Made by a program: the position numbers and the translations under genes. Of a DNA stretch of 64,000 nt, positions 7,932-16,910 are shown in pieces. The notes beneath the pieces were generated by a model. That model was not told where the DNA came from and ran no database searches. It saw only the letters and a program-made list of their open reading frames with translations. The stretch is from Galbibacter pacificus (GTDB lineage Bacteria > Bacteroidota > Bacteroidia > Flavobacteriales > Flavobacteriaceae), in contig NZ_JAQSVC010000002.1 in the NCBI RefSeq assembly GCF_029603165.1, positions 620,001-684,000 on the forward strand. The letters are read 5' to 3'. How positions within the stretch are numbered: the first letter of the stretch is position 1; every line of letters starts with the position of its first letter.

Positions 7932-8002
7932 TTTTTTTACTCGTTCTTTTATGTTAATAATATCCCGAATAAAATTAAAACGGATTGTTCTTATAAAAAA
8001 GT

Positions 8003-8956
8003 TTAATGGCTATTAGTTTCCGATATTTTTTCAACAGTAAGGGGCTTCTCTATTTTACCCGTTAATTTTTCTTGCCAGTTGGACCAATTGTATTTTTTTG
8101 AAAACACCATCAACAAAATAGGGAAAACCACAAAAATGGGCACAAACACATCGTAACCCAGTTCTGGTATGGAAACATCTTTGTAAATGGAATGTGTTTG
8201 AAAAGCTGTCCAATCGGCCGTTACAAGCAATGCAGTAATAAGGTTGTTGGCGACATGAAACCCCAAACTGAGCTCCATACCGTCGTCCATTAAGGTCAAT
8301 ATGCCCAAAAACAATCCCGTGCCAATGTAATAAACCATTATTCCATAGCCCAATTGGTAGACTTCGGGATTAAAAGCATGCAGACTGCCAAAAATAAGGG
8401 ATGTCATTAACAACGGTGCCCATCGGTTAAGGAACAAACCTGCAAAGCCCTGCATTAAATATCCTCTAAAAATATATTCTTCCAAGCTGGTCTGCAAAGG
8501 AATCAATAAGGTACCGAGAACGAAAAGAATAAGAAAGGGAACCAGTTTAAAGTTAAGTTGATAATCTTCTGGAGATATATACACATCTACCATAATAAGT
8601 ATCCCTGAAATCGATGCCCACAAAACGAAAGAAAAGAAAATACGCTTCCAATCAATTTTTTTCCTTCCCGTTGTTAAGGACGTAATAGATTGACTATGGA
8701 ATACCTTTACCAATACAAACAAAAGCGGTAAACAAACCGCAAATGGCAACAGCATTAAAAACAAATTAAGGTTGGGTTCCAGTACGCTCAATAGCGCAGT
8801 AGTGTCTCCACTGGTAAGGACGCCCGCACCCTCTTTGTAAACAATGGCTAGGACAAAGGGAATCTGCATTATCTGACTTACAACTATTATTATAAGCGAT
8901 ACCAATAAATACCGCCAAAATTCGTGTTTGTAATTAAATACCTGTTTTAAATACAT
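8003..8956 (-). CDS. CPBP family intramembrane metalloprotease
   Basis: 317 residues with about eight hydrophobic helices. The glutamate motif EEYIFRGYLMQ (about 161-171) and two later histidine motifs (FGSLHAFNPE and LGFHVANN) are those of the CAAX protease/bacteriocin-processing (CPBP, Abi) family of membrane metalloproteases. It sits between menC and menE on the same strand; this gene order is common in flavobacteria but has no known link to quinone synthesis. Substrate unknown. Confidence 0.87.
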   Translation of the reverse strand: MYLKQVFNYKHEFWRYLLVSLIIIVVSQIMQIPFVLAIVYKEGAGVLTSGDTTALLSVLEPNLNLFLMLLPFAVCLPLLFVLVKVFHSQSITSLTTGRKKIDWKRIFFSFVLWASISGILIMVDVYISPEDYQLNFKLVPFLILFVLGTLLIPLQTSLEEYIFRGYLMQGFAGLFLNRWAPLLMTSLIFGSLHAFNPEVYQLGYGIMVYYIGTGLFLGILTLMDDGMELSLGFHVANNLITALLVTADWTAFQTHSIYKDVSIPELGYDVFVPIFVVFPILLMVFSKKYNWSNWQEKLTGKIEKPLTVEKISETNSH

Positions 8957-8987
8957 ATGCTATAAAATAAAATCCCTTTAATGGGAA

Positions 8988-10031
8988 TTAACTTGTAATT
9001 AAATTTTTGTTCCAGTTTTTTTGGGTATTGTAATGCAAGGCACCATTTTTAACCTCCAACGGGCTATCTATATTGTTTGTATACAAACTGCCCGTTCCCA
9101 AACCTTGCGGCAATGGGTTTTTCAAGGTATACGTCCATTGAGCTATGGCATTGAGCCCTACGTTGCTCTCCAAGGCACTTGTTACCCACCAACCTATATC
9201 CATATTATTGCAAAGTGAGATCCATTCTTCTGCGCCTTTGTAACCGCCAATTAAACTTGGTTTTAAAATTATGTACTGTGGCTTGATAGTTTGTAGCAGT
9301 TCTTGCTTTTTTGTTACATCAAAAATGCCAATTAATTCTTCATCCAAAGCAATGGCCAGCGGAGTTTGTTGGCACAACTGTTCCATTTTTTTCCATTGGC
9401 CGGGTTTTATGGGCTGCTCGATGGAATGGATATCCAGCGTTGCTAGTTTTTCCAATTTTGATAAGGCTTCATTTGGAAAAAATGCACCGTTTGCATCTAC
9501 GCGAAGTTCTATTTCTTTTGCTGAAAAGCTACTTCTTATGGCCTTTAAGAGTTTGAATTCCGTATCAAAATCAATGGCGCCAATTTTCATTTTTATACAA
9601 TTGAAGCCAGCCGCTATTTTTTCGGAAATTTGCTGGTTCATAAACTTTTCTTCGCCCATCCAAATGAGTCCATTTATGGAGATTGCGCTTTTTCCCTGTG
9701 TAAAATCTGAAGGGAATAATTCAAATTTATTTTTACTCTGAAGTGATAAAAAAGCTTGTTCTACACCAAACTGTATTGAGGGAAACTCCAACAAAGCTTT
9801 CCACAAGGCTTCTTTTCCCAATTGTATATTCTTACAGACCCAATTAAGCTTTTCTTCATAATCTGGAGTATCGTCAATACTTAACGAGCGTAAAATACCG
9901 CATTCGCCAATACCGGTTTTTCCTTCATCTTCAATAACAATAAACCAAGTTTCCTTATGGGTAAGTATCCCTCTTGAGGTTCCGCTGGGACGTTTAAAAT
10001 GAAGTAAATGTTTTTTATAAGATGCCTTCAT
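8988..10031 (-). CDS. menC: o-Succinylbenzoate synthase
   Basis: 347-residue enolase-superfamily enzyme. The catalytic lysine motif CIKMKIG is near 144, followed by metal ligands in RVDANGAF, SIEQPI and ALDEELIG. The second lysine is in ILKPSLIGG near 254, as expected for the dehydration of SHCHC to o-succinylbenzoate in menaquinone synthesis. The start codon directly abuts the stop of the upstream UPF0173 gene (10032), which indicates co-transcription. Genome neighbours menE, menA and menB support MenC rather than a dipeptide epimerase. Confidence 0.9.
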   Translation of the reverse strand: MKASYKKHLLHFKRPSGTSRGILTHKETWFIVIEDEGKTGIGECGILRSLSIDDTPDYEEKLNWVCKNIQLGKEALWKALLEFPSIQFGVEQAFLSLQSKNKFELFPSDFTQGKSAISINGLIWMGEEKFMNQQISEKIAAGFNCIKMKIGAIDFDTEFKLLKAIRSSFSAKEIELRVDANGAFFPNEALSKLEKLATLDIHSIEQPIKPGQWKKMEQLCQQTPLAIALDEELIGIFDVTKKQELLQTIKPQYIILKPSLIGGYKGAEEWISLCNNMDIGWWVTSALESNVGLNAIAQWTYTLKNPLPQGLGTGSLYTNNIDSPLEVKNGALHYNTQKNWNKNLITS

Positions 10032-10709
10032 TTACAGTTCTATACTTTCACCAATTTCTAATAGCATCAAGTCTTTTCCGGCATTATAAAACTGTTTTTT
10101 GGCATCTTCGTGGTCAATTTCAATATATCCAAAAGTATCAAAATGATAACCAAGAACCTTATCGCATTCAACAAAATCTGAAGCCGTAATGGCGTCTTCC
10201 ACACCCATTGTAAAATTATCCCCAATGGGCAAAATAGCCAAGTCTAACTTGGTGCGCAACGGAATGAGCTTCATGTCCATTGTAAGTGCGGTATCGCCGG
10301 CTATGTAAATGTTTTTATGCTCGCTCTCTATTACAAATCCGCCGGGTTGTCCGCCATAAGAGCCATCGGGAAAGGAGGACGAATGTATTGCGTTTACGTA
10401 TTTTACAATACCAAACTCGAAGTCCCAATTTCCACCATGGTTCATTGGGTGCGATTCAATGCCCATTTTACCGTAATGAGATGCTATTTCGGCATTAGAG
10501 ACCACTACTGCGCCTGTTCGCTTGGCAATGTTTTCGACATCCAGGACATGATCTCCATGGGCATGGGTTACCAAAATATAATCGGCTTTTATGGCATCGA
10601 GATCTATGTGCGAAGCCCTTTCGTTGCCCGAAATAAACGGGTCTACCAAAATATGTATGTCGTCTATTTGGATTACTAAAGAAGCATGTCCGTAAAATGT
10701 AATCTTCAT
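10032..10709 (-). CDS. UPF0173-type metal-dependent hydrolase (MBL fold)
   Basis: From the ATG at 10709 (MKITFYGHAS) the protein has about 225 residues. A longer frame to 10733 adds an unlikely basic leader. It contains the metallo-beta-lactamase motif THAHGDHV near 54-61, plus downstream metal ligands in SHPMNHGG, IYIAGDTALTMDM and GYHFDTFG. The UPF0173 family has unknown substrates. It lies between the sensor kinase and menC and abuts menC, so it is probably in the men operon. Confidence 0.87.
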   Translation of the reverse strand: MKITFYGHASLVIQIDDIHILVDPFISGNERASHIDLDAIKADYILVTHAHGDHVLDVENIAKRTGAVVVSNAEIASHYGKMGIESHPMNHGGNWDFEFGIVKYVNAIHSSSFPDGSYGGQPGGFVIESEHKNIYIAGDTALTMDMKLIPLRTKLDLAILPIGDNFTMGVEDAITASDFVECDKVLGYHFDTFGYIEIDHEDAKKQFYNAGKDLMLLEIGESIEL

Positions 10710-10783
10710 CAGTTTGATTTTTTGATTAAACAAAGCACAAAATCATAATTAATCATGATTTCCCAGCCTAAAATTAAGGAAAT

Positions 10784-12829
10784 TTAATCGAAATAAAACC
10801 AAAAACGAACACCTTGTAAATTCTTGTCGATATTTATTTTGGAACGGAGCTGATTGGCAAGCCTTCTTATTAGGTTCATTCCCATTGAGCCGGACACTTC
10901 GGTATCGAATCCTTCGGGGAGCCCCATGCCATCGTCTTTATATTCAAACAATATTCTGTTGTCTTCTTCTTTTATCAAGCTAATGTATATGTTTCCTTTG
11001 TTGCCGTGCTCAAATGCATATTTAAAAGAATTGGAAATGAGCTCGTTTAAAATCAAACCAATGGGAATAGCCCTGTCTACGTCCAGTTCTGAACTTTCTG
11101 CATTGATGTGTATGTGAATTTTGTCTCCGTTTTTTTTGTATACGGATTGAATGCTTGCCGATAACGATTCTATGTATTCCTGCATTTTAATGACCGAAAG
11201 ATCCTCATTTTGATATAATTTTTGATGAATCAATGCCATTGCCTTTACCCGGCTTTTACCTTCTTCCAAGGCATTTATGGCCGACTTGCTTTTGGTATTT
11301 TTTGTTTGAATGCTCAACAAGCTCGATACCACCTGTAAATTGTTTTTTACGCGGTGGTGGATCTCCTTGAGCAGGGAATCTTTTTCTATTAACGAGTTTT
11401 CTATAATTCGCTTTTGGTTTTCAATTAGGCGTTTGTTTTTTGTACTTTTTAAATACGCAACAATCAACCCAATTACACAAAGTATACATAATGCCAGCGC
11501 AGAAACACTTAGATAGATTGCCTTTTCCCGTTCTAAAATCTCTGCCTTATTTTTTTCAAGGTTAAGGCGTTGCCTTTCTATGGTTTCTTTTTGGTTTTTA
11601 AGGTCGAATTGCACCAAAAGACTCAGCAATTGCTTCTTTCTACTGCTATAATCTACCGAATCTTTAAGTTTTACATATTTTTTAAAAAAAAGCGAAGCAG
11701 AATCGGGGGAACTGTCTTTTAAGTAAAAATTGGCCCGTAAGCGATTGTAATTAACCGAGTTGGACTTTACTACTTTTTGCTGCTGGACAATACTGTCCAG
11801 ATATGCCTTTGCCAATTCAAGATTGTTAATTTCCAGGTAACATTCGGCAATATTGCCCCATAAATCGACCGTGGTTTTGGAATACATGCCATTATCGTGT
11901 ATTTTACTGGCAGAAACCCCAGCCTCTAAATAAGGGAGTGCATCCTTGAATTTGCTCTGGAACATTTTGCATTTTCCTAAATTGCTTTCTATTTTACCTT
12001 TTAAGAAGACGGCTTCGTTAAACCTGTCGACACTGATACTGGTATCCTTTAGGTAATTATCGATGCTTTTTTTGGCAGTTTCTATGTCTTTTAGCGCCGT
12101 GTATATGGAACCATCTTTTAAAAGATAAACTCCAAGATCGTTGTAATACTTTGCCTTATAAAATTCGTCGTTGCTTGTTTCCAGTTTGGTTTTATTGGCA
12201 ATTACATATTCCATCATTGCTTGTCTGTACAAGCCCAATTCTGCATATACATCATACAGGACAATAGCTACCCCGGCATTTTTAAGGTCCCTTCTAATTT
12301 CCAATTGCTTGTCGTACAATTGCAGCTCTTCATAAAGCTTATCCAGCGTTTTAAGCAACTGTATTTTTACTTCCCTGCCCAGTTTTCCTTCTTTTTGATA
12401 TAGCAATTCGGCTATTAAAGCCCCTTTATCGTAGTTTCCAACATCGTAATAAAGCTGGGCCAAAATAGTCTTGTACTTAAATACGGTAACAGAATCCTTG
12501 TATTTTTCGGCTTCAATTAAAGGTTTGTTTATGGAATCCAGCCAAGTATATGCCGAGCTAATCTGGTAACGGTTATTAGTATTAAAAAAGTAATTGAAAC
12601 GTTCTTCGATAGAATTAATCTTTAAAAACTCCTTTAAAGGATCGTTGTTAACGGTATCGCCCTTTTGGGCATAGCAAATTACAACTGCATTAAGCAGCAA
12701 GAACAAAAAAACGGTCTTTTTATATGTTGTGTAGCGTTGCAATGCTATTTCTAACTTTAATCCCATAAAATGGGCTTTTATTTTCCGTTGGCACTGTGGC
12801 ATGAACCGGCCTTTATAGGTCGAATACAT
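10784..12829 (-). CDS. TPR-containing sensor histidine kinase (HisKA_2 type)
   Basis: 681 residues at most. A signal-like helix KTVFLFLLLNAVVICYAQ precedes a long helical TPR-like periplasmic region (about 70-430). A membrane helix follows (AIYLSVSALALCILCVIGLI, about 440-460), then a HisKA_2 module with phospho-acceptor motif EIHHRVKNNLQ near 490 and a HATPase (NELISNSFKYAF, DDGMGLPEGFD, GSMGMNLIRRL). The Met at 12766 gives a better signal peptide than 12829. The LytTR regulator upstream on the same strand is its probable partner. The gap between them carries three predicted small-RNA units, the last just upstream of this gene. Confidence 0.88.
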   Translation of the reverse strand: MYSTYKGRFMPQCQRKIKAHFMGLKLEIALQRYTTYKKTVFLFLLLNAVVICYAQKGDTVNNDPLKEFLKINSIEERFNYFFNTNNRYQISSAYTWLDSINKPLIEAEKYKDSVTVFKYKTILAQLYYDVGNYDKGALIAELLYQKEGKLGREVKIQLLKTLDKLYEELQLYDKQLEIRRDLKNAGVAIVLYDVYAELGLYRQAMMEYVIANKTKLETSNDEFYKAKYYNDLGVYLLKDGSIYTALKDIETAKKSIDNYLKDTSISVDRFNEAVFLKGKIESNLGKCKMFQSKFKDALPYLEAGVSASKIHDNGMYSKTTVDLWGNIAECYLEINNLELAKAYLDSIVQQQKVVKSNSVNYNRLRANFYLKDSSPDSASLFFKKYVKLKDSVDYSSRKKQLLSLLVQFDLKNQKETIERQRLNLEKNKAEILEREKAIYLSVSALALCILCVIGLIVAYLKSTKNKRLIENQKRIIENSLIEKDSLLKEIHHRVKNNLQVVSSLLSIQTKNTKSKSAINALEEGKSRVKAMALIHQKLYQNEDLSVIKMQEYIESLSASIQSVYKKNGDKIHIHINAESSELDVDRAIPIGLILNELISNSFKYAFEHGNKGNIYISLIKEEDNRILFEYKDDGMGLPEGFDTEVSGSMGMNLIRRLANQLRSKINIDKNLQGVRFWFYFD

Positions 12830-12863
12830 GTTCCAGGCTGGTTGGCCATCAATATAAAACTTT

Positions 12864-12896
12864 AAAAAAGCCTAAATGCAATATTTAGGCTTTTTT
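12864..12896. terminator. Intrinsic terminator T3 upstream of the kinase gene
   Basis: Perfect 14-bp stem: AAAAAAGCCTAAAT at 12864-12877 pairs with ATTTAGGCTTTTTT at 12883-12896, with a 5-nt loop. It has U-tracts on both strands. On the minus strand it ends predicted small RNA unit 3 and lies 35 bp before the longest kinase reading frame, so it could attenuate that gene. Confidence 0.8.
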
Positions 12897-12962
12897 TCAG
12901 ATAACATATATAATAATTAATCCTCCAAGCGTCATTATTATATAATTAACATCTTAACAGCG
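12864..12962 (-). ncRNA. Predicted LytTR-controlled small RNA, unit 3
   Basis: Inferred about 99-nt minus-strand RNA. It would start about 4 nt after the -7-like box TAAGTTTA (12973-12966) and end at terminator T3. It contains an 11-bp hairpin (12907-12917 with 12934-12944) whose 16-nt loop includes TTGGAGGA. The RNA begins near CTGTTAAG, similar to the TGTTG starts of units 1 and 2. No convincing peptide is encoded. It may be a free sRNA or an attenuated leader of the sensor kinase. The call rests on geometry shared with units 1 and 2. Confidence 0.45.
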
Positions 12963-12965
12963 CGG

Positions 12966-13031
12966 TAAACTTAGTCTATATAACCGAAAAAAGTAAATTT
13001 TTGTTGTATAAGAAGAGTTTTATGTGGTAAA
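12966..13031 (-). promoter_or_regulatory. LytTR-type direct repeats plus -7 box, unit 3
   Basis: On the minus strand TTTACCAC (13031-13024), N13, TATACAAC (13010-13003), then 29 bp, then TAAGTTTA (12973-12966), 7 of 8 to TAnnTTTG. The 8-N13-8 arrangement (21-bp period) is the geometry known for LytTR regulators such as BtsR/YehT. The regulator gene is 550 bp upstream. Confidence 0.55.
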
Positions 13032-13097
13032 AAAGTTTAAATATGAAATTCTGTGAAGAATAATACATTTTTACATGTAAGCAATTGACTGCCTTTT

Positions 13098-13198
13098 AAA
13101 ATAAAAAGAGTTTTAAGGGGGGACTTAAAACTCTTTTATAATAACATTATGAAAAAATAAGTTGTCTTTGCTATTAACCAACTTTTTAATTATCAACA
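13098..13198 (-). ncRNA. Predicted LytTR-controlled small RNA, unit 2
   Basis: Inferred about 100-nt minus-strand RNA starting near TGTTGATAATTAAAAAGTTG, 4 nt after the -7-like box, and ending at terminator T2. A 5' hairpin pairs AAGTTG (13184-13179) with CAACTT (13164-13159). The same position in unit 1 pairs AATTGAT with ATCAATT, so the stem is kept while its bases change, which favours a structured RNA. No ORF of note. Confidence 0.45.
13104..13137. terminator. Intrinsic terminator T2
   Basis: 14-bp perfect stem: AAAAGAGTTTTAAG (13104-13117), loop GGGGGA, CTTAAAACTCTTTT (13124-13137). The minus-strand tail CTTTTTATTTT is the better U-tract. The stem core matches that of T1 at 13341-13374. 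Confidence 0.75.
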
Positions 13199-13201
13199 GG
13201 G

Positions 13202-13267
13202 CTAACTTATGGCTTCTTTTAGAGGAATAATAATTTTTGTTGTGTAAACGGCATATAGTGTTGTATA
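13202..13267 (-). promoter_or_regulatory. LytTR-type direct repeats plus -7 box, unit 2
   Basis: On the minus strand TATACAAC (13267-13260), N13, TACACAAC (13246-13239), then exactly 29 bp, then TAAGTTAG (13209-13202), 7 of 8 to TAnnTTTG. Spacing is identical to units 1 and 3. Confidence 0.55.
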
Positions 13268-13332
13268 AAGCACAAATATGTTCGCAAACATACTTTCTGG
13301 TAAATTTTGGCTCTCTATTCTTGGTTGAGTTG

Positions 13333-13478
13333 AAAACAAAAAAAAGAGTTTTAGATTGCTCTAAAACTCTTTTTAAATACCATTTAATTAGGTAGGTAGT
13401 AGTAAGTAATAGTATAGGTTTAAGGCTTTGCGTTTTTAATTGATATATTGGGGCTTAATCAATTTTTAACTAACAACA
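13333..13478 (-). ncRNA. Predicted LytTR-controlled small RNA, unit 1
   Basis: Inferred about 140-nt minus-strand RNA beginning near TGTTGTTAGTTAAAAATTGA, 4 nt after a perfect -7 box, and ending at terminator T1. It has a 5' hairpin AATTGAT (13464-13458) with ATCAATT (13444-13438) and CCCC in the loop, then an unstructured A/C/U-rich stretch (about 13390-13420). Its start aligns with unit 2 (TGTTG, TTAAAAA, TTG, TTAA). Only a 10-codon frame inside the terminator is present, which I do not consider coding. Confidence 0.5.
13341..13374. terminator. Intrinsic terminator T1
   Basis: 15-bp perfect stem: AAAAAGAGTTTTAGA (13341-13355), loop TTGC, TCTAAAACTCTTTTT (13360-13374). On the minus strand eight T residues follow, a strong terminator for RNA unit 1. 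Confidence 0.8.
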
Positions 13479-13481
13479 CTC

Positions 13482-13568
13482 CAAATATATACTGCTTACT
13501 TAATACTAAAAAATTATTGTTGTATACTCCTCTTTTTATGTGGTTAAAAGACTACATTGTGTTGTTAA
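13482..13568 (-). promoter_or_regulatory. LytTR-type triple direct repeat plus perfect -7 box, unit 1
   Basis: On the minus strand TTAACAAC (13568-13561), N13, TTAACCAC (13547-13540), N13, TATACAAC (13526-13519), then exactly 29 bp, then TATATTTG (13489-13482), a perfect TAnnTTTG. Three repeats in strict 21-bp phase lie on one helix face. The array starts 8 bp after the response-regulator stop codon. No -33 TTG is visible, as expected for an activator-dependent promoter. Confidence 0.6.
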
Positions 13569-13575
13569 CGAAATT

Positions 13576-14337
13576 TTAAGAGTTCATATTTGAAAGAATA
13601 AACTCCCTAAATTCCTTGGAAATGGGAATGTTTTTCCCATTTATCATGATGTCTTTTGTATTGATGGCTTCAATTTGATCGATATTAACAATATACGACT
13701 TATGAGCACGGTAAAATTGCTTGGAAGGCAATTTTTCCAGGTAATCCTTTAAAGCCGACCGAACCAAAAAGGTTTTGTCTTCGGTATAAACTTCAAGGTA
13801 TACATTATCTGCTTTGACATAATGAATATCGTCAAAAGGAATCCTGTAGTAATGTTGGTTCTTTTTAACGAAGATTGAATTTCGCAATACGGAGTTGGAA
13901 ACCATTTTGCCATCGTCCTCTTCTTCTACGGCCGATCTTTCCGTAATAACCGATGTCTCATCGTTAAAATTGGAAAGCGCGATCTCTATTGAAGTAAAAA
14001 GGTCCTGTTGTTCAAATGGTTTTACCAAATAACCGTTTGGTTTTACACTCTTAGCATTCTCTACGGTAGCTTTGTCTGAGTTTGAGGTTACAAAAATAAA
14101 GGGGATGTTGTAATTTTGCCTGATATGTTTTCCCAGGTCTATCCCTGTTTTTTTCGATGCGAGAACAATATCCACGAGCGCTAGGTCTATATCTTGGCTT
14201 GAGAGTGCTTCTACGGCACTTTCATAATCTACTACGTTTGCCACGATTTCGTACCCGATGTCTTCGAGCATGGATTGCATGTCGTCTGCAATGATTACAT
14301 TGTCCTCGACAATTAGAATCTTAATTAGTTGGTCCAA
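13576..14337 (-). CDS. LytTR-family response regulator
   Basis: 253 residues. The receiver domain (about 1-120) has acidic pocket VEDN near residue 11, phospho-acceptor D in LALVDIVLASKKTG near 56, and KPFEQQD with the conserved Lys near 105. A linker leads to a C-terminal LytTR DNA-binding domain (about 150-250; IFVKKNQHYYRIPFDDI, FYRAHKSYIVNIDQI). LytTR domains bind 8-9-bp direct repeats about 21 bp apart, and such repeats occur in three clusters just downstream. It is 30 bp from menA on the same strand, so it may be transcribed with menB-menA. Partner kinase: the HisKA_2 protein at 10784-12829. Confidence 0.92.
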   Translation of the reverse strand: MDQLIKILIVEDNVIIADDMQSMLEDIGYEIVANVVDYESAVEALSSQDIDLALVDIVLASKKTGIDLGKHIRQNYNIPFIFVTSNSDKATVENAKSVKPNGYLVKPFEQQDLFTSIEIALSNFNDETSVITERSAVEEEDDGKMVSNSVLRNSIFVKKNQHYYRIPFDDIHYVKADNVYLEVYTEDKTFLVRSALKDYLEKLPSKQFYRAHKSYIVNIDQIEAINTKDIMINGKNIPISKEFREFILSNMNS

Positions 14338-14367
14338 AATTTTGTGCTGTTAAAATCTGTTCTAAAT

Positions 14368-15276
14368 CTACAAAAAAATATTATAACCAAGCAAGAACAG
14401 GATTGCAAATAGAAAAGTGCTCAGTGCTAATTTTTTTAGTTCAGGGTCTAATTTTGCTGCATCTTTGGTATGCTTTACCCTTTTAAGATGCATTATTAAA
14501 GGCAGGTACGAGATTAAAAATAACAGGTTGTATGCAGCATTATAATTCAAAATTAAATAGATAATCCCAAAAGCCATTGCCAAAATAATAATACTAAAAT
14601 GGTAAATTTTGGCTTTGTCAATACCAATTTTAACGACCAATGTATTTTTATTGGCTTTTTTATCGCTGTTCATGTCCCGCATATTATTGAGGTTTAAAAC
14701 CCCTACACTTAACAACCCGACCGAAAAAGCAGGTAAAAAAACATCAATGCTTAACTGTTGCGTATATAAAAAATAAGTACCTAAAACACTCACCAAGCCA
14801 AAAAACACAAATACAAAAACATCTCCATAGCCCCTATAACCATATGCGGTATTTCCAACGGTATATTTTATGGCCGCTACAATTGCAGCTATTCCCAAAA
14901 GAAAAAATATAATGGAGTGATTGAAATTTCGGTTTTCAAAAGACACATAAATAAGAAAAATAGCCGAGGCCAAGGTTAAAATAGTAGTAATGATAATTGC
15001 CGTCAACATTTCCCTGTCGGTTACAATACCGCTTTGCAGTGCCCTCATGGGGCCAATACGTTCCATATTATCGGTACCTTTTACCCCATCACCATAATCG
15101 TTGGCAAAATTAGAGAGTACCTGTAGCCCAACGGTTGTAATTAAGGCCAGTATTAAAATAGTGCCATTAAAAAAACCTTCTGAAAAAGCAATGGCCGAAC
15201 CAACAATAATACCAGATATTGAAAGGGGCAATGTTCTAAGTCTGGCAGCCGATAAAAGAGTTTTTATTTTTGTCAT
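14368..15276 (-). CDS. menA: 1,4-Dihydroxy-2-naphthoate polyprenyltransferase
   Basis: 302-residue UbiA-family prenyltransferase with about nine membrane helices. The first Asp-rich motif NFANDYGDGVKGTDN is near 57-71 and the second MRDMNSDKKANKNTL near 199-213; these bind Mg-prenyl diphosphate. MRALQSGIVT follows the first motif as in MenA. It joins the isoprenoid tail to DHNA to give demethylmenaquinone at the inner membrane. The gene lies 10 bp after the SPOR-like gene in a menB, SPOR, menA, LytTR run. Confidence 0.92.
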   Translation of the reverse strand: MTKIKTLLSAARLRTLPLSISGIIVGSAIAFSEGFFNGTILILALITTVGLQVLSNFANDYGDGVKGTDNMERIGPMRALQSGIVTDREMLTAIIITTILTLASAIFLIYVSFENRNFNHSIIFFLLGIAAIVAAIKYTVGNTAYGYRGYGDVFVFVFFGLVSVLGTYFLYTQQLSIDVFLPAFSVGLLSVGVLNLNNMRDMNSDKKANKNTLVVKIGIDKAKIYHFSIIILAMAFGIIYLILNYNAAYNLLFLISYLPLIMHLKRVKHTKDAAKLDPELKKLALSTFLFAILFLLGYNIFL

Positions 15277-15285
15277 TCAAATAAA

Positions 15286-15897
15286 TTATAGGCCATCTTC
15301 AATCTTGATACGCTTTCCGTTTTTATAAGAAGCTACAAAAGCATCTTGAAAGCCAAGTGCTATGAGTTCCTTTCTAAATATTTTTGCATCGTCTAATGAA
15401 GTAAAATTGCCCAGTGAATATTTATTGTAGGGTTTGTCCTTGTATTGATTAATGTTCCGAAGCTCTTCTGAATATAAAGAAAGATCTCTGTTTTCCAGTG
15501 CAGCAATTTGTACGGCATAAATAACTTCAGAATTAAGGTCCCTGTAATCTATGGTGCTTATCTCCTGTGGAATATTACTTTCGACCTTGGTTTCGAGCAT
15601 GGATATTTGTTGCTGGTAATTATCAATTTCATTTGTATTGATAAGCTTTTTGTTTTTGGATTGCAGGTATGTGTCGTTAACATACACGGAAGGTCTTACA
15701 AAATATAGGGTAACTCCAACAACAAGAATCATTACAAGTGAAATTGAGGTCCATTTAAAAATATCCTTTTTTCTCAATATCTCTTCTTTTTCTTCCCTTT
15801 GTTTACGCAATTCGTTTAAAAGGCGTTCTTCGGTAACCTCTTTAGATTCGATAGTCTTGTGCAAATCTACTAAGTGATGTTCGTCAATGTATGGCAT
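15286..15897 (-). CDS. Single-pass membrane protein with SPOR-like C-terminus
   Basis: 203 residues. It has a charged cytoplasmic coiled-coil (about 15-45, rich in Glu/Lys/Arg), one membrane helix (WTSISLVMILVVGVTLYFV), a spacer, and a C-terminal segment VIYAVQIAALENRD to GFQDAFVASYKNGKRI (about 128-198). That segment has the spacing of a SPOR peptidoglycan-binding domain. It may locate to the division site, but this is inferred from the fold only. It lies between menB and menA on the same strand. Confidence 0.7.
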   Translation of the reverse strand: MPYIDEHHLVDLHKTIESKEVTEERLLNELRKQREEKEEILRKKDIFKWTSISLVMILVVGVTLYFVRPSVYVNDTYLQSKNKKLINTNEIDNYQQQISMLETKVESNIPQEISTIDYRDLNSEVIYAVQIAALENRDLSLYSEELRNINQYKDKPYNKYSLGNFTSLDDAKIFRKELIALGFQDAFVASYKNGKRIKIEDGL

Positions 15898-15936
15898 AAT
15901 ACATATCTTTTTGATTAAACAATCAGTTATTTTATG

Positions 15937-16779
15937 CTATGGAATCCACTTTATATCTTTAAAATTAGGTTTTCTTTTTTCTAAAAATGCATTCCTTCCC
16001 TCTTTCGCTTCTTCGGTCATATAAGCCAATCTGGTTGCTTCTCCGGCAAAGACTTGTTGACCAACCATACCGTCATCGGTAAGGTTCATTGCAAATTTGA
16101 GCATCTTTATGGATGTGGGGGATTTTTCTAATATTTCCTGCGCCCATTGATAGGCCGTACTTTCGAGCTCGTCGTGTGGAACAACGGCATTTACCATGCC
16201 CATGTTAAAAGCTTCCTGTGCGGAATAGTTTCTTCCTAAAAAGAAAATCTCCCGAGCCTTTTTCTGCCCTACCATTTTAGCAAGATAGGCAGAGCCATAG
16301 CCACCGTCAAAGCTGGTAACATCGGCATCTGTTTGCTTAAATATGGCGTGTTCCTTGCTTGCCAGCGTCATATCGCAAACCACGTGCAAACTATGTCCAC
16401 CACCAACGGCCCAGCCTGGAACTACGGCAATAACCACTTTTGGCATAAAACGTATAAGTCGTTGAACTTCAAGAATATTCAACCTGTGCATCCCATCTTC
16501 TCCAACATATCCTTGGTGGCCGCGCGCTTTTTGGTCGCCACCACTACAAAAGGAATAAACACCATCTTTTGTAGAAGGCCCTTCGGCAGACAACAAAACA
16601 ACCCCAATGCTTGTATCTTCTTGCGCATTGTAAAACGCTTGGTATAATTCACTGGTCGTTTTTGGCCTAAATGCATTTCTAACATTGGGACGGTTAAATG
16701 CAATTCTGGCTACACCATTGCATTTTTTATAGGTAATATCTTCAAATTCCTTAACAGTTTCCCACTGTGGTAAGCTCAT
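15937..16779 (-). CDS. menB: 1,4-Dihydroxy-2-naphthoyl-CoA synthase
   Basis: About 280 residues from the ATG at 16779 (MSLPQWETVKEFEDITYKK); the frame opens at a TTG 21 bp earlier. Crotonase fold with CSGGDQKARG (oxyanion hole) near 85, WAVGGGHSLHVVCDMTLAS near 135-153, and the active-site segment TSFDGGYGSAYLAKMVG near 171. It performs the Dieckmann-type ring closure of o-succinylbenzoyl-CoA in menaquinone synthesis. It heads the menB, SPOR-like, menA, LytTR gene run. Confidence 0.93.
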   Translation of the reverse strand: MSLPQWETVKEFEDITYKKCNGVARIAFNRPNVRNAFRPKTTSELYQAFYNAQEDTSIGVVLLSAEGPSTKDGVYSFCSGGDQKARGHQGYVGEDGMHRLNILEVQRLIRFMPKVVIAVVPGWAVGGGHSLHVVCDMTLASKEHAIFKQTDADVTSFDGGYGSAYLAKMVGQKKAREIFFLGRNYSAQEAFNMGMVNAVVPHDELESTAYQWAQEILEKSPTSIKMLKFAMNLTDDGMVGQQVFAGEATRLAYMTEEAKEGRNAFLEKRKPNFKDIKWIP

Positions 16780-16910
16780 ACTTATTGGTATTTTTTTCAA
16801 ATGTAACAGATAAACTTTGCATTTCTAAATAAATGCCCGTTTTTTTGAGCAAATGCAACGCCTCAAAGCAGTTTTTTGCCATTTTTTCCTTAAAAAAACG
16901 CTCTAAATGT

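Follow-up and report, generated by a model that had tools for sequence, protein, structure and literature searches.

The RR-Kinase Locus

The window is a 64,000-nucleotide stretch of Galbibacter pacificus DNA in which a LytTR response regulator (RR) gene and a histidine kinase gene both lie on the minus strand. The intergenic stretch between them carries three units on the same strand, each consisting of 8-bp repeats, a TAnnTTTG-type box and a hairpin (Table 1). The first-pass annotation had named the regulator as a LytTR protein, and Pfam bears this out with a receiver domain (Response_reg, E 3.5e-21) and a LytTR domain (E 6.5e-21). Its profile finds a match at E ≤ 1e-60 in 85 of 397 genomes of the family Flavobacteriaceae (the RR genomes), and the protein is 85-90% identical to its orthologues in six genomes of the genus and 72% identical to those of two further genera. 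The kinase matches HisKA_2 (E 1.3e-26) and HATPase_c (8e-8), with TPR matches below the Pfam cut-off in its N-terminal part. The pair seems to be set among what we take to be menaquinone-synthesis genes (window positions 8000-16800), and eight relatives' loci retain the flanking genes on at least one side.

Table 1. Features of the RR-kinase intergenic region and the flanking genes, in window coordinates
Feature	Position	Strand	Remarks
LytTR response regulator (RR) gene	13576..14337	-	receiver and LytTR domains
Unit 1 operator, three 8-mers phased at 21 bp	13519..13568	-	sequence read directly
Unit 1 -7 box TATATTTG	13482..13489	-	29 bp past last repeat
Unit 1 RNA, putative start	13341..13480	-	terminator 13374-13341; proposed class D sponge
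Unit 1 stretch predicted to pair with class D positions 1-45	13376..13427	-	
Unit 2 operator TATACAAC-N13-TACACAAC	13239..13267	-	
Unit 2 -7 box TAAGTTAG	13202..13209	-	29 bp past last repeat
Unit 2 RNA, putative start	13104..13200	-	ends in terminator 13137-13104; probably a divergent class A sRNA
Unit 2 seed region, class-A-like, ACAACTTATTTTTTCATAATG	13145..13165	-	alignment to model R1; putative function
Unit 3 operator TTTACCAC-N13-TATACAAC	13003..13031	-	like operators before RR-distant kinases
Unit 3 -7 box TAAGTTTA	12966..12973	-	29 bp past last repeat
Unit 3, probable kinase leader, putative start	12864..12964	-	hairpin and terminator 12896-12864
Histidine kinase gene	10784..12829	-	HisKA_2, HATPase, TPR-like N-terminal part; start codon uncertain

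The stop codon of the RR gene ends at 13576, which leaves 7 bp before unit 1 rather than the 8 bp first given. Each unit ends in a terminator, as had been annotated; the segment from 12500 to 14000 contains five terminator-like hairpins including the three unit ends, compared with an average of 0.8 in shuffled sequence, and the fold z-scores of units 1, 2 and 3 are -3.97, -3.88 and -3.28. The earlier statement that the gap has no credible open reading frame (ORF) also holds. Only one ORF reaches 50 codons; it is on the opposite strand (13237-13395), and a tblastn search of ten relatives' loci gave no convincing match to it (best E 0.003, 20 residues). The longest closed ORFs on the RNA strand are short, with 10, 23 and 12 codons in units 1, 2 and 3. 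It is highly improbable that the units encode very short peptides: another operator in the genus does drive an ORF of 41-62 codons, and unit 2 has its 23 closed codons, but units 1 and 3 offer at most 10 and 12, and by eye no frame is kept between relatives, whereas the cores of the class A RNAs described below are kept nearly letter for letter. At the gathering score, Rfam 15 gave no match in the window and 13 further loci, and the sub-threshold Rfam matches (a plant microRNA, leaders and the like) were rejected as poor fits.

Operator Geometry across Flavobacteriaceae

A hallmark of LytTR operons is a set of direct repeats about 21 bp apart with the promoter just downstream. Direct reading of the sequence finds the repeats where they had been annotated, in 21-bp steps within each unit; seven of the 8-mers had been said to fit TWWACMAC and six do, the second of unit 2 (13246-13239) being TACACAAC. 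A strict TWWACMAC scan of the segment accordingly returned six matches, which form three pairs at 21 bp, two of them with a box at 29 bp. Among 1000 dinucleotide shuffles of the segment, the mean was 0.34 strict 8-mers, no shuffle had more than one 21-bp pair, and none combined a 21-bp pair with a box at 29 bp. The shuffles together with conservation rule out chance or AT-richness as the source of the repeats, and conservation across loci is a stronger test than shuffles of this one segment.

The 85 RR loci were scanned from the RR gene to the kinase gene, or over at most 1500 bp if the kinase was not found, using a weight matrix for the repeats alone that was trained on these same loci with the box left out of the training. 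This called 119 operators, all scoring at least 24.5, with zero, one, two and three operators in 15, 34, 23 and 13 loci, respectively; the species are related, so that these and the other genome and locus counts given here are not independent. Exactly 29 bp separate box and last repeat in all three units of the window, and the first-pass annotation had named beforehand the loss of both this spacing and the 21-bp phasing in relatives as something that would speak against it. The spacing is kept: the best box (at least five of six letters) lies 29 bp past the last repeat in 113 of the 119 operators and at 30 bp in 6, compared with 1.3% of 20,000 random positions in the same DNA with a box at exactly 29 bp. 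The LytTR-type geometry proposed from this locus, i.e., direct repeats of about 21 bp at a fixed distance from a box, is thus found throughout the 119 operators. Alignment of 52 operators gave the consensus TTCACAAC-N13-TWCACAAC-N29-TAnnTTTG, and no -33 element was visible by eye in the unit promoters. A set of 80 loci was taken as the best of a longer list, and four of these 80 (L044, L045, L046 and L050) were dropped as duplicates. Thirteen of the 15 empty loci are from Arenibacter, where the kinase was not found in the available sequence, two of these thirteen being cut by a contig end; degenerate operators escape the matrix, as in G003, where none was called though they are visible by eye. 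The repeats are putative binding sites of this regulator.

Unit 3 and the Kinase Gene

A copy of unit 3 lies directly 5' of the kinase gene in all seven genomes of the genus. In three of the seven the kinase is located apart from the RR, and there too the unit-3 operator, box and terminator are found directly upstream of it. Because the copy stays with the kinase even when this gene has moved away from the RR, unit 3 is most readily understood as promoter and leader of the kinase gene itself, perhaps also releasing a short RNA. In several Eudoraea-type loci an operator precedes the kinase without a called terminator after it. Positions 12940-12960 of unit 3 contain a possible four-codon ORF (ATG TTA ATT ATA TAA), kept by eye in most members of the genus, which may encode a leader peptide.

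The first-pass annotation had proposed three small RNA (sRNA) genes. The operators, boxes and terminators support it, and units 1 and 2 stand as RR-linked sRNA genes; the place of unit 3 before the kinase in 7/7 genomes argues against a third, free-standing one. The opposite extreme would be to regard RR and kinase as one operon and all the units as leader or attenuator segments within it, with terminators that set the ratio of kinase to RR. This would suit the position of unit 3 and the presence of terminators between the two genes, but every unit has an operator and a box of its own, units 1 and 2 remain beside RR genes that have no kinase downstream, and 30 of 34 class A cores (see below) occur in loci without an RR, which makes this explanation very unlikely.

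Unit 1 and Its Complementarity to Class D RNAs

By eye, unit 1 is found next to the RR in 7/7 genomes of the genus. Other genera have units, here termed class B, that carry CCCCAAATCTTAC; class B matches at E ≤ 1e-3 occur in 101 of 397 genomes, and the 27 genomes with a match at E ≤ 8.3e-7 are all RR genomes. Model R2 gave no match to unit 1. The complement of the class B motif was searched in 18 genomes and, in the 16 with matches listed, occurs elsewhere as tandem copies, which are exact or one letter off and mostly 150-330 bp apart. They appear to represent a third family of sRNAs, class D, in which a TAnnTTTG-type box is followed by CCATAGCATAAGTAGGTTAAGTTCATGGTAAGATTTGGGG and then by a terminator. 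The tandem sits after what we take to be an amidophosphoribosyltransferase-like gene, and a gene presumed to be superoxide-dismutase-like comes next in the five class D loci read, while it is absent at the locus of the window genome. A 33-nt piece of class D is present in 145 of 397 genomes, with zero matches for the control. Of the 85 RR genomes 80 have the core, 79 of them more than once, as against 65 of the 312 non-RR genomes, 12 of them more than once; in the window genome it is found twice, at G000:C15:349723 and 349932. Class D as a direct target of the LytTR protein was rejected, as no operator was found upstream of 28 copies (best score 7.7).

Duplexes predicted between class D and the unit 1 RNA of each of the seven genomes of the genus gave a mean of -28.0 kcal/mol, and none of 300 shuffled D sequences paired as well. 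For the window's own unit 1 the dG is -31.3, with 1 of 200 shuffles as good, and the duplex spans D positions 1-45. Taken genome by genome, at most 6 of 200 shuffles were as good in six of the seven genomes, and 40 of 200 in G001. As a control, class A RNAs were paired with D, and 126 of 300 shuffled D sequences did as well; units 2 and 3 of the window likewise showed no pairing (143/200 and 136/200 shuffles as good). Class B RNAs gave a mean of -33.2 with 0/300 shuffled D as good, a complementarity that is partly built in, since D was found through the class B complement and the 31 B RNAs were picked by their motif. Unlike the class B RNAs, unit 1 was not picked by this motif. Unit 1 thus looks like a sponge for class D, which it would sequester in the cell, and we propose the same role for class B, which carries the same class D complement in other genera.

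The pairing also bears on whether the three units are simply tandem LytTR-activated sRNA genes, unit 3 included, that act on unrelated mRNAs of their own, in which case the complementarity of unit 1 to D would be incidental. All three units do possess operator, box and terminator, unit 3 is conserved and folds well, and no target was found for unit 2. The link of unit 3 to the kinase and the failure of every shuffled D to match the real one speak against it, and we consider such a set of independent RNAs unlikely.

Unit 2 and Class A RNAs

Unit 2 was seen by eye beside the RR in five of the seven genomes of the genus, G001 and G003 being without it. Outside Galbibacter, many loci contain a unit of 80-115 nt with the core TTTTCATTTTCATATAGTGTTCTC, termed class A. 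In 29 aligned copies, 23 of the 24 core columns are invariant and the remaining column differs in one copy; the flanks vary. As a 12-letter stretch of the core served to select these copies, the invariance of its letters is in part a product of the selection. The terminator shows compensatory change at 11 of 14 pairs. With a covariance model, class A matches at E ≤ 0.01 were found in 198 of 397 genomes, with up to seven matches per genome, and the scores are separated by a gap: the best E is 7.1e-10 or lower in 70 genomes, and the next is 9.0e-6. All 70 of these strong class A genomes are among the 85 RR genomes (Fisher 1.7e-63, kinship ignored). In 30 loci (L124-L153), the operator stands at the fixed distance from 27 of 34 class A cores, and among the 30 cores located away from any RR it is present at 23.

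In the window, the class A model R1 matches positions 13183-13097 (42.2 bits, E 4.1e-7); the terminator contributes to this score. The unit 2 copies of relatives gave E 0.0015 or weaker, or no match, and lone terminators score too. Unit 2 is therefore graded here as a probable divergent member of class A, a kinship suggested by this alignment. The complement of the unit 2 seed was searched using the seed of the genus and Robertkochia (G002, G004, G006 and two Robertkochia genomes; the window genome and G005 have other seeds), and it gave 16 matches as against 23 for the control, the four exact matches being the sRNA genes themselves. In Cellulophaga (L053, L054, L082) a class B core is followed by a class A core in one RNA, as if classes A and B had been fused, or had split from one ancestor.

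Complementarity of Class A and Class D to a CAP Lipoprotein mRNA

The complement of the class A core was searched in 20 genomes with at most two mismatches, which returned 55 exact matches (mostly the sRNA genes) and 72 inexact ones, compared with 35 control matches. Five of the nine one-mismatch matches fall on start codons, and four of these five belong to one gene, which encodes a CAP-domain lipoprotein (Pfam E 1.1e-12); the fifth lies on another lipoprotein-like ORF with no Pfam match. Four of the exact matches are also CAP starts. Relatives of the CAP gene are present in 59 of 60 genomes searched. We then computed the pairing of the class A core across the start codon for the 42 closest CAP genes, each being the best protein match of its genome at a profile E ≤ 7.9e-66; the 42 include the four that had led to the target. 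All 42 beat every one of 661 control ORF starts, with energies of -33.6 to -20.4 kcal/mol (median -28.0) as against a median of -11.1 and a best value of -19.8 kcal/mol for the controls, which are mechanical starts of ORFs of at least 150 codons from 80 loci, many of them orthologous. At the 28 remaining CAP loci pairing was not beyond controls, with the exception of L282; as this is the only one to fit, 43 of the 53 class A genomes outside Galbibacter show the match. Within the paired stretch of the CAP mRNA (-10 to +12) most changes are in columns capable of G-U pairing, chiefly three, a pattern counted without control for transition or codon bias. Taken together, these observations suggest that in other genera class A is likely an antisense RNA that covers the start codon of the CAP mRNA. 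In Galbibacter, pairing of the CAP starts with the class A core was no better than controls, and the window genome's own CAP genes gave with unit 2 only long duplexes, which are uncontrolled. CAP genes as direct LytTR targets were rejected, as a scan ahead of 70 of them gave no operator (best score 12.7).

The leader of the same mRNA may be a partner for class D. The motif CCTACTTA, which is the complement of the class D loop/seed, is present in 28 of 42 CAP leaders and in none of 660 controls; it was spotted in CAP leaders before being counted. Whole CAP leaders paired with D at a median of -27.0 compared with -20.0 for controls, 22 of 42 being below the control 5% point, so that predicted whole-leader pairing is only moderately better than controls. 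For the window genome's own CAP leaders, 9.7% and 4.5% of control leaders were as good.

RNAs can also titrate proteins, as RsmY and RsmZ do with RsmA, and the RNAs described here might be decoys for a protein that recognises a C-rich motif (CCCCAAAT and similar), in which case the motif in the CAP leader would be its site. The C-rich motif does occur in the same sense in class B, unit 1, the small-ORF mRNAs described below and CAP leaders, and CCCC is found in 37 of 42 CAP leaders as against 135 of 660 controls. Against this, there is a conserved sRNA, class D, that complements both the motif and its neighbour, and class A is not C-rich and fits a start codon; we regard a protein decoy as quite improbable.

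A Proposed RNA-Based Output of the RR-Kinase Pair

Operator geometry and its conservation, complementarity beyond controls and co-occurrence can be read directly from the DNA; RR binding, transcription, pairing in the cell and the sign of regulation are what we infer from them. We consider it reasonably probable that the RR-kinase pair works to a good extent via RNA, namely through a sponge (unit 1), an antisense RNA (unit 2 and class A) and an autoregulated kinase. In this scheme the LytTR protein would bind the 21-bp phased repeats and activate the unit promoters. The unit 1 RNA would base-pair with the separately controlled class D sRNA and titrate it, as class B would elsewhere, while unit 2 would make an antisense RNA of the class A type. 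In other genera class A, often present in several dispersed copies, would cover the start codon of the CAP-domain lipoprotein mRNA, in whose leader class D would have complementary sites. Since class A and class D are both complementary to the CAP mRNA, the two arms would meet on one target. Unit 3 would act as an RR-dependent kinase promoter with a terminator-bearing leader, resulting in autoregulation. The presence of class D in non-RR genomes and of the RR operator before protein genes count against this explanation. It is tempting to speculate that the core output of the system in a large marine flavobacterial clade is a pair of sRNAs encoded between the RR and kinase genes, one antisense and one anti-sRNA, with one CAP mRNA as their common end point; we see the arguments for and against this as evenly balanced. 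If true, one signal would withdraw one RNA regulator (D) from a single target and bring in another.

Sets of sRNAs activated by two-component systems include Qrr (LuxO), the csRNAs (CiaR) and RsmY/RsmZ (GacA). The present system resembles them in that one response regulator appears to govern several sRNAs, some of which are copies of one family, and short terminator-ended RNAs are likewise predicted under the operator of the regulator. In contrast to these sets, the regulator is a LytTR protein with a HisKA_2 kinase, the hosts are Bacteroidota, the loci searched gave no Rfam match, and RNAs of two distinct types are encoded between RR and kinase. Activation of an RNA by a LytTR-domain regulator through phased direct repeats is known from RNAIII under AgrA and VR-RNA under VirR; the regulator type, the repeats and a putative regulatory RNA are shared with the present case, whereas RNA length, sequence, phylum and the multi-unit layout differ. 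SroC, 3'ETS-leuZ and the ChbBC decoy of ChiX are sponges or anti-sRNAs that complement the seed of another sRNA, as unit 1 presumably does in titrating class D. Unlike these, the presumed sponge would be a dedicated gene under a two-component operator, and it shares its locus with a partner sRNA whose likely target also fits the sponged sRNA.

To our knowledge, few sRNAs with known regulators or targets have been described in Bacteroidota. Among the papers listed in searches of the PMC literature, which leaves preprints and most subscription papers outside its scope, we found no report of LytTR-driven sRNAs in this phylum and no published description of an RR-sponge-antisense wiring. Here a regulator, an operator grammar, a target gene and predicted base pairs, together with three families of RNA, are suggested by sequence alone. 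The system would also be an example of a single regulator whose sponge and antisense RNA seem to converge on the same mRNA. The operator grammar can in addition be used to look for further RNAs under RR control in other members of the family. A conserved flavobacterial sRNA with a mutant phenotype is Rfp18 of Flavobacterium psychrophilum (PMC9723704), the main text of which makes no mention of LytTR.

Other Operator Sites

In six other genomes the operator model found 5-14 places each at E ≤ 1e-3. Thirty such loci, one of which is cut by a contig end, include nine class A RNAs, five class B RNAs, one class B-like variant and one kinase; the remainder are mRNAs or other RNAs, and several of these carry CCCCAAAT or CCCAAATCTTA near the start. 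The RR operator is thus also found before protein genes. In 7/7 genomes of the genus it precedes, complete with its promoter, the ORF of 41-62 codons mentioned above, beside a CoA-transferase-like gene (L158, G000:C16:349969-350033(-), in the window genome, and L155, L157, L160, L161, L167 and L168). This ORF has a hydrophobic, lysine-containing end of the KSLMLIAKKLLMF type and is followed by C-rich motifs and a terminator-like hairpin. As targets of class D the small-ORF mRNAs were rejected, the pairing being weak (z -0.3 to -2.9 in 7 genomes).

At L381 and L384 an ORF of 487 codons, with what looks like a signal peptide at its start, follows the operator, and letters like CCCAAATCTTA, complementary to class D, stand immediately ahead of its start codon. 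Close upstream of another LytTR gene, at G000:C17:41604-41653(-), the operator model matches in part (model positions about 5-54, no box), and similar partial matches in the other six genomes of the genus are, by position, near the corresponding LytTR gene. Two further partial matches, beginning at model positions 11 or 21, lie about 1 kb apart at G000:C14:455038 and 456048, and pairs of this type recur in several genomes of the genus.
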